From Polyangiaceae bacterium (lineage in GTDB: Bacteria > Myxococcota_A > Polyangia > Polyangiales > Polyangiaceae), in the NCBI GenBank assembly GCA_020848455.1, contig JADLAB010000134.1, forward strand, positions 1-40,700: a DNA stretch of 40,700 nt. Direction: 5' to 3'. The notes beneath the pieces are model-generated. The model did no database searches. It was given only the letters and a program-made list of their open reading frames with translations, and was not told the DNA's origin. Shown here one piece after another: positions 26,673-28,525 of this stretch. Numbering within the stretch: position 1 is the first letter of the stretch; every line of letters begins with the position of its first letter. The translations under genes were made by a program, and so were the position numbers.

Positions 26673-27488
26673 ATGACCGACCGAGCCTACGCCGAGAGCC
26701 GCTACCGCCACCCCGAGCTCGATCACGCCTACGGCGAGGGCGTCCACCTGCTCGACGACCCGGTGGCCTGGAGCCTGCTCACGCGCCTGTGCTCGCCCGA
26801 GACGACCCAGCCCGAGTTCGGCCGGCTGCTCGCCGTCCTCTATCAAGGGCTGGCGCACGCGGTCTTCGCGGCCGAGCTGCCGCGCGCCCGGGTCGACGCC
26901 CCCACGCGCATGGCGTCCACGCACCGCGAGGCCGTGTATCGGGGTGTCGCCCTCGCCCGCAGCGCCAAGGCCGTGACGGTGGCGATCGCGCGCGCTGGCA
27001 CGGTGCCCTCGCAGGTCGTGTTCGAGCTTCTGAACGAGCTGCTCGACCCCGTGTGCGTGCGCCAGGATCACCTGTTCATGAGCCGCACGACGAACGCGGC
27101 CGGCGAGGTCACGGGCGTCGCCTGGCACGATGCGAAGATCGGCAAGGACATCGGCGGCCGCTACGTCTTCTTTCCCGACCCCATGGGCGCCACCGGCTCG
27201 TCGATGGCGAGCGCCCTCGACCACTACCACACGGCCCTCGAAGGCAAGCCCTCGCGCTGCGTCGCCATGCACCTCATGGTGACGCCCGAGTACATCCGCA
27301 AGGTCAAGACCAGCCACCCCGCCACGGCGATCTACGCGCTGCGGCTCGACCGCGGCCTCTCGACCGAGGCCGCCCTCGCCTCGCGCCCGGGCGAGCGCTG
27401 GGACGAGGAACGCGGGCTCACCGACACCCAGTACATCGTGCCCGGCGCCGGCGGGGTCGGCGAGCTGCTCAACAACGCCTGGGTCTGA
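26673..27488 (+). CDS. Uracil phosphoribosyltransferase-like PRTase, divergent and enlarged
   Basis: 271-residue protein matching the uracil phosphoribosyltransferase fold in its second half: AVTVAIARAGTVPS (the base-proximal flexible-loop strand), DPMGATGSS (PRPP loop at Asp169, DPMLATGGS in standard enzymes), AIYALRLDRGLS and a C-terminal TQYIVPGAGGVGELLNNAW. The bacterial enzyme is usually about 208 residues. Here there is an N-terminal addition and an insertion of about 20 residues between DRGLS and the YIVPG uracil-binding motif. In that motif GLGDAGD becomes GAGGVGE, so base specificity is uncertain. It is cytoplasmic. A GAAGG sequence precedes ATG 26673. It is divergent from the SCP2 gene. 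Whether it acts in uracil salvage or on another base cannot be told. Confidence 0.75.
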   Translation: MTDRAYAESRYRHPELDHAYGEGVHLLDDPVAWSLLTRLCSPETTQPEFGRLLAVLYQGLAHAVFAAELPRARVDAPTRMASTHREAVYRGVALARSAKAVTVAIARAGTVPSQVVFELLNELLDPVCVRQDHLFMSRTTNAAGEVTGVAWHDAKIGKDIGGRYVFFPDPMGATGSSMASALDHYHTALEGKPSRCVAMHLMVTPEYIRKVKTSHPATAIYALRLDRGLSTEAALASRPGERWDEERGLTDTQYIVPGAGGVGELLNNAWV

Positions 27489-27511: not shown

Positions 27512-28525
27512 TCAGGTCTTCGAGCGGCGCGGGTCGTGGCTGGGCACGAGCGCGAGGTAGTCGATGCGCGGCTCGCGCACCGAGGGCGGCGGCGGCAGCT
27601 CGGTTCGCGCCTGCACGAGCAGCGAGACCATCTCGCCGAGCTCGCTCGCCGCGCGCGCCGGCCCCTGCTGCACCAGCGTCGAGAAGGCCTCGGACAGGGC
27701 CCCGATCCCGGCGCCGGCGGCGTGGCCGCGGCGCGCGAGGTCGAGGTAGCTGCGCGCGAGCGAGCCGCCGTCGAAGTGGTGCGCCCCGGCGAGATCCTGC
27801 GCCACGCGCAGCACCGCCGGCGCGCCGAGGCAGCCGTCCTCCTGCAGCACGAAGGCAGCCTGAAGGTAGTTGTAGAACGGCACGACGCGCGAGCCGTACA
27901 CCGCGAAGTCGCCCGGCAGGCTCTGGCGCTCGAGGTGGATGAGGATGCGGCCGACCACCGGCCCGGGCTCGATGTAGGCCGCCATGCGCTGGGCGTCCGC
28001 GATGTCGTCGTCGTAGGCCCGCGACTGGCGCATGACCGCGGCGAGGAGCTCCGCCCCGACGACGCCGCGGCAGAGGTCCGCGTAGAGCGAGTAGACGAAG
28101 GCGTCGGCCTCCGCGTCGTCGCCGAGCAGGAACTCGCGCACGAGCTCGCCGCGCGCGTCGCGCTGTGCCGGCAGCTCGCAGCGCCCGCGCAGCAGGGCCG
28201 GCAGCTTGTAGCCGAGCTGGCCCCGCAGCGCCCGCAGGCGCAGGCGCAGGAGATTCTGCAGGTTCGGCTTGAGCGTGAGGCTCGCGAAGCGCACGCCGTC
28301 GAGGCGCAGCTTCTCGACCACGCGCCCGCGGAGCTGCTCGGGGCTGCCCGACAGGATGTGCACGGGGATGCGGGCGCGGGCGATCTCGCGCATGAGCGCC
28401 GCGGCGCCGGGCACCGTGCGCTTCTGGTCCGGGCGCTCGACGGCCGTACGCACGAGGTCGCGGAGCGTGTCGAAGTCGGTGCGCAGGTAGGTTTTGTCGA
28501 GGTCCCAGCGGGCGACGTAGCTCAT
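27512..28525 (-). CDS. APP1/DUF2183-type HAD-like phosphatase-domain protein
   Basis: 337-residue protein whose first 150 residues carry HAD-superfamily motifs in the order of the APP1 (DUF2183) domain: WDLDKTY with Asp8 and Asp10, HILSGSPEQL with the motif II Ser, TLKPN with Lys86, and LLGDDAEADAF with Asp136/Asp137. In fungi the APP1 domain dephosphorylates phosphatidate; substrate identity in bacteria is unknown. The last 190 residues are helical and not recognised. No signal peptide is seen. ATG 28525 follows a CGGGAACGG stretch. The gene lies 58 bp downstream of the kinase/ATPase gene on the same strand and could share its transcript. It converges with the PRTase gene, 23 bp apart. Confidence 0.75.
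   Translation of the reverse strand: MSYVARWDLDKTYLRTDFDTLRDLVRTAVERPDQKRTVPGAAALMREIARARIPVHILSGSPEQLRGRVVEKLRLDGVRFASLTLKPNLQNLLRLRLRALRGQLGYKLPALLRGRCELPAQRDARGELVREFLLGDDAEADAFVYSLYADLCRGVVGAELLAAVMRQSRAYDDDIADAQRMAAYIEPGPVVGRILIHLERQSLPGDFAVYGSRVVPFYNYLQAAFVLQEDGCLGAPAVLRVAQDLAGAHHFDGGSLARSYLDLARRGHAAGAGIGALSEAFSTLVQQGPARAASELGEMVSLLVQARTELPPPPSVREPRIDYLALVPSHDPRRSKT

Follow-up and report, generated by a model that had tools for sequence, protein, structure and literature searches.

The gene at positions 26673..27488 (+) of the window, the 40,700-nucleotide stretch of Polyangiaceae DNA analysed here, encodes an enlarged protein of the uracil phosphoribosyltransferase (UPRT) family with an altered base-binding motif. 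Does this protein still do the work of a UPRT, does it serve another base, or has it lost its activity? The gene is a single open frame of 271 amino acids plus stop. We placed the start codon at ATG 26673, which alignment A1 shows to be shared by L002-L006, its close relatives, and preferred it to GTG 26601, from which a longer frame also appears in the ORF list. The protein scored 53.8 bits against the Pfam UPRTase profile PF14681 (cut-off 27), and it has the PRPP-binding features of the family, the DPMxATG loop and the RAG arginine. Its scores against the two NCBIfam equivalog models for upp were below the cut-offs (56.9 for TIGR01091, cut-off 208.35; 59.4 for NF001097, cut-off 114). These two models were its sole NCBIfam matches at E up to 1, and no PyrR model matched at that limit. 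A PDB sequence search, also with E up to 1, returned 13 matches, 12 of them UPRTs and the remaining one an ABC-transporter chain with an E of 0.75. In searches of open-licence papers, none of the listed titles and abstract openings described this long-form subfamily.

The earlier note had described a protein about 60 residues longer than a standard UPRT, with DPMGATGSS as its PRPP loop, GAGGVGE in place of GLGDAGD, and about 20 extra residues before that motif, and alignment with the UPRT of B. caldolyticus bears out this description. The window protein is about 62 residues longer than the B. caldolyticus chain (271 against 209 amino acids). The distance from D226, the Asp of DERLN, to the YIVPG Tyr is 28 residues in the window protein and 8 in B. 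caldolyticus UPRT, so an insertion of 20 residues lies ahead of the uracil-binding hood. We measured conservation over 105 collected long-form members (103 distinct over the last 240 residues), a set in which all 22 A1 genes are represented, either directly or through a second handle for their contig. The PRPP side is almost unchanging: in the RAG arginine motif R107-A-G109 (26991..26999, +) R107 and G109 are present in 105/105 members and A108 in 102/105, K155 is invariant (105/105), and in the PRPP loop at residues 169-177 (27177..27203, +) P170, M171 and A173 are found in 105/105 and D169, T174 and G175 in 104/105. The family-specific insertion region, residues 231-253 (27363..27431, +), has G240, E246, G248 and L249 in all 105. 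It is followed by the rebuilt hood YIVPGAGGVGE, residues 254-264 (27432..27464, +), in which the Y, I, P and G of the YIVPG stretch are kept by 105/105 members and G261 and E264 by 104/105 each, and then by a C-terminal Asn pair, N267-N268 (27471..27476, +; 102/105 and 103/105). Residues 191-201 of the B. caldolyticus enzyme read HGYIVPGLGDA, and the shared YIVPG lines up its Asp200 with G261 of the window protein. The proposed catalytic Asp of GLGD is therefore Gly in 104 of the 105 members, the window protein included; the sole Asp at position 261 belongs to the genome G342, which reads YIVPGAGDVG. The altered motif layout is a conserved trait of the family, not a damaged oddity.

A structure model built from alignment A1 (22 sequences) had a mean pLDDT of 87 and a pTM of 0.86. 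In a structural search with this model, 14 UPRT entries were listed on top with Z of 21.3-22.9, the next entry having 13.1, and Foldseek likewise ranked UPRTs first among the listed matches. The predicted model thus gives the window protein a UPRT fold, the outcome of the structure prediction that the earlier note had put forward as a check. The pLDDT falls below 50 at residues 257-261, in the hood, and at 268-271, and with this low confidence the geometry of the hood is unreadable from the model. The canonical upp products of known structure (B. caldolyticus 1i5e, Thermotoga 1o5o, Thermus 1v9s) share with the long form the fold (Z about 22), RAG, DPMxATG, the PE motif and YIVPG. The long form differs from them in its extra length of about 62 residues, the 20-residue insertion before the hood, a different C-terminal tail, and the replacement of Asp200 by Gly and of Asp203 by Glu. 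PyrR, named in NCBIfam as a bifunctional regulator/uracil phosphoribosyltransferase, also has a PRT fold, but its Z with the window protein is only about 13 and its gene lies elsewhere in the same genome.

Compared with the two sequences nearest to it, the window gene has dN and dS of 0.013 and 0.160 (L002) and of 0.172 and 0.983 (L003); the substitutions are under purifying selection. A frameshifted or decayed gene is ruled out by the single open frame together with this selection. In tblastn searches, the plasmid and phage collections yielded a single weak match apiece (26.5% and 25.3% identity), and nothing supports an origin from a mobile element.

A single genome-contig scan yielded 24 related loci with the long form, which by record title come from Myxococcota, Planctomycetota, Opitutia/Verrucomicrobia, one Lysobacteraceae and some records titled just Proteobacteria. 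We built a quick tree of 95 rows, for which the Myxococcota long forms were thinned to every other one; several long branches were flagged, including that of G342. In this quick tree the long forms make one clade of 65 rows with an SH-aLRT of 97 and a long stem (branch 2.11). The rows from Planctomycetota, Opitutia and Lysobacteraceae are interspersed among those of Myxococcota, which suggests, as far as a quick sequence tree can tell, that the long form was transferred between phyla. The G342 protein (locus L208, Planctomycetota), which has Asp where the others have G261 and reads YIVPGAGDVGN, branches first among the long forms. It is a possible intermediate, and the change from Asp to Gly probably took place early inside the family, since the sole Asp sits in this first-branching protein, though its branch is one of those flagged as long.

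The earlier note had advised looking for a second, canonical upp in the genome. We rejected this possibility: in a PF14681 search of the genome (a draft, 96.5% complete, 742 contigs) the window gene was the only match, while a PyrR gene is present. The sister genome G001 (86% complete) also has the long form alone. The same pattern extends over the phylum. Counting as canonical the full-length PF14681 matches above 200 bits and as long the A1 matches of at least 180 bits, we found the long form in 113 of 284 Myxococcota genomes, a full-length canonical upp in 57, and both in 0. The two sets were drawn by hand from the match lists, both of which stop short at the weak end, and lie above that point; not counted among the 57 were the canonical fragments of G180, G272 and G228, the tail of 37 residues in G059, and the proteins of the 359-aa type in G268 and G207. 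Among the matches listed, no long form reached 71 bits in PF14681 and no canonical form 57 in A1, so the two classes are clearly separated. Both forms are present in seven families, and within them 10.84 overlaps were expected and 0 seen (P about 1e-9, assuming independence within families and ignoring kinship; family totals may be short by up to three genomes, match-less and unnamed in the list). In the window's own family, f1, 11 of the 27 genomes have the canonical form and 9 the long one. Neither form was found in 114 of the 284 genomes, 83 of which have PyrR, so the enzyme class is dispensable there. A possible exception to the alternation is the long-form genome G059, whose canonical UPRT tail of 37 residues (G059:C263:5131-5241) lies at the edge of a 5244-base contig. 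This tail may be contamination or a real second gene.

Outside Myxococcota the counts are smaller. Among 147 Planctomycetota genomes, 22 have the long form, 15 the canonical form and 9 a third type, with no overlap; taken alone, the alternation is weak in this phylum (P 0.077 against canonical, 0.014 against both). We also checked 13 genomes of named related loci, among them 3 from Planctomycetota, 3 from Opitutia/Verrucomicrobia and 1 from a Lysobacteraceae record, some of which recur in the two samples above; in all of them (13/13) the long form was present and a full-length canonical upp was not. The samples overlap in that the places of G090 are those of G292 and the places of G127 those of G295. 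In 96 Verrucomicrobiota genomes, searched with a limit of E 1e-8 that may miss weak long forms, 45 genomes had canonical matches of at least 189 bits and one had the long form, the chosen centre G286, so this sample does not bear on overlap. The best reading of these counts is that the long form displaces canonical upp across genomes as an alternating gene.

The searches also brought up other UPRT types. The third subfamily, in 9/147 Planctomycetota genomes, scored 96-122 bits against PF14681 and never occurred with the long or canonical form in those 147 genomes; the seven loci that were read, L197-L203 (genomes G435, G331, G423, G409, G364, G379 and G394), keep GLGDAGD. In Myxococcota, L204 and L205 (G268 and G207) are UPRT-like open frames, each 359 residues long, which read GVGDAGDR or GIGDAGDR and are extended at the C-terminus.

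An alternation of two genes can arise from poor assemblies, and we used PyrR as a control in the same Myxococcota genomes. PyrR was found in 69/113 long-form genomes, 21/57 canonical genomes and 83/114 others. It is independent of the long form (69/113 with it, 104/171 without; odds ratio 1.01), which disfavours an explanation of the alternation by poor assemblies. Genomes with canonical upp carry PyrR less often than the rest (21/57 against 152/227, odds ratio 0.29, p 6e-5 uncorrected for kinship), so the control is clean for the long form only. The 21 genomes carry PyrR and canonical upp together, so genes of this phylum can be unevenly distributed and yet not exclude each other completely.

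The neighbourhood of the long form points to nucleobase salvage in many members. We read the best-scoring 80 of 112 listed long-form places and 20 of 57 canonical ones, with hpt and tdk probes for tblastn taken from long-form loci. An hpt gene was near 62 of these best-scoring 80 long forms and near 0/20 canonical upp genes (Fisher 6e-11, relatedness ignored); many contigs end within 4.5 kb, and 62/80 is possibly an undercount. The neighbouring hpt genes were 49-67% identical to the probe, the probe's own locus excepted. In 47/79 long-form loci hpt was the next same-strand gene downstream, and 42 of these 47 had a gap below 100 bases; the next gene upstream was thymidine kinase in 10/78. By tblastn, tdk was nearby in 12/80 long-form and 1/20 canonical loci. 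One representative of each was confirmed in NCBIfam (HGPRT 211.7 bits, cut-off 150; thymidine kinase 265.1, cut-off 183). HGPRT, a frequent neighbour outside the window's family, belongs to a different PRT family and has a purine substrate by annotation. Among the 24 related loci, 7 have hpt and 3 tdk, and in the Lysobacteraceae locus L015 tdk, the long form and hpt are consecutive. An hpt-like match was near 5/8 fetched Planctomycetota long forms (one just 37% identical to the probe), and tblastn found none near three named Planctomycetota loci. The recurrent neighbours that were annotated or read, a part of all, included no uracil-specific gene such as a permease or cytosine deaminase. Near the canonical genes of Myxococcota the neighbours are of another kind, with a GTP-cyclohydrolase-II-like gene in 5/20 loci and a 444-residue unnamed protein in 4/20 (e.g. 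L161:1856-4449); these loci may resemble those of the URC uracil-degradation genes.

Neither hpt nor tdk was found near the long form in the 8 fetched loci of the window's own family, so the operon evidence stems from more distant members. The window gene itself is surrounded by genes for an SCP2 protein, a CoA transferase, a 337-residue protein and a protein kinase. In its genome hpt is on another contig, and apt, pyrE, prs and pyrR are separate genes, all confirmed by NCBIfam; among eight PF00156 matches, purF was recognised by eye and two look spurious. The 337-residue protein (27515-28525, -) has no Pfam match, is present in 51/60 genomes of the window's family and adjoins the long UPRT in 18/30 fetched loci. 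A DLDKT stretch in it resembles a HAD motif by our own reading.

We consider the window gene to be a putative functional UPRT of a separate long-form subfamily that stands in place of canonical upp, with a probability of about 0.73. This reading rests on the predicted UPRT fold, the kept PRPP motifs, the hood altered family-wide, the way the gene alternates with upp, and the salvage genes found near many other members. The alternation and these neighbours also favour uracil over another base. Among the findings against this reading, the proposed catalytic Asp is absent, and the genome carries PyrR, which may have UPRT activity of its own. We lowered our estimate from 0.75, and raised those for another base and for an inactive protein by 0.01 each, because operon evidence is missing from the own family and PyrR is unevenly spread. 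The reaction would be uracil + PRPP -> UMP + PPi, with uracil as the presumed substrate. PRPP would bind first, as in the ordered mechanism reported for M. tuberculosis UPRT (PMC3570474).

The hood and insertion differ from canonical UPRTs exactly at the base-binding place and are near invariant in the family, as they might be if the rebuilt hood set the specificity for another base, e.g. xanthine or a modified pyrimidine. In many members hypoxanthine and guanine are, by annotation, already served by the neighbouring hpt, and a partner with another specificity is conceivable. Still, we regard a different base as unlikely; the alternation is with canonical upp and not with PyrR, which suggests the same job as upp, the Y, I, P and G of YIVPG are retained throughout, and the closest folds listed are UPRTs.

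The earlier note had proposed that changes in the base-recognition region might have altered the substrate or left a protein without activity in a regulatory role. That this region is specifically rebuilt holds; the lost activity does not fit well with the PRPP motifs, the purifying selection and the upp alternation. A UPRT relative that is catalytically dead and retained for regulation or structure would account for the missing Asp, and purified human UPRT, whose uracil site is altered, is described as inactive in vitro (PMC4536494). This is improbable, more so than a change of base, given PRPP residues that hardly vary over the 105 members, the way the gene alternates with upp, and the presence of hpt and tdk beside many members. 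The same source describes the Drosophila homologue Kri: two conserved residues are missing from its uracil site, yet it converts 4-thiouracil in cells, so a changed uracil site need not mean lost activity (PMC4536494). Human UPRT and Kri resemble the long form in a kept PRPP site and an altered uracil site, but the two residues they are without are termed glycines in PMC4536494, whereas the long form keeps the motif glycines, loses the Asp and gains the insertion. An ordinary, fast-evolving upp whose motif drifted neutrally is very improbable: the protein does belong to PF14681 and the Asp of the outlier G342 offers a gradual path, but Gly261 and Glu264 in 104/105 members each and the single clade on its long stem look like fixation.

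Should the putative UPRTs of this family be active, they would have to activate the base by other means, as the Asp is replaced by Gly and the PRPP part is kept. Asp200 of B. caldolyticus, and perhaps Asp198 in M. tuberculosis, has been proposed to accept a hydrogen bond from the enol form of uracil (PMC3570474). In the long form this task would fall to one of the invariant acids, E246 in the insertion or E264 in the hood, or by main-chain groups of the reshaped loop. E246 and E264, the latter three residues past G261, are natural candidates as near-invariant acids at this place. Our tentative proposal, to which we give somewhat less than even odds, is that the clade works without the base-activating Asp through an invariant Glu (E246 or E264), perhaps with widened or moved base specificity, and has taken over the role of upp. 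If this is true, the residue proposed as base activator of UPRT would be dispensable in a large natural clade, and the proposed mechanism would become a testable question. Many Myxococcota and some Planctomycetota would also gain a gene for uracil salvage that scores too low for the upp equivalog models, as the window protein does. The presence of such a gene would further predict whether 5-fluorouracil counter-selection works in those bacteria.
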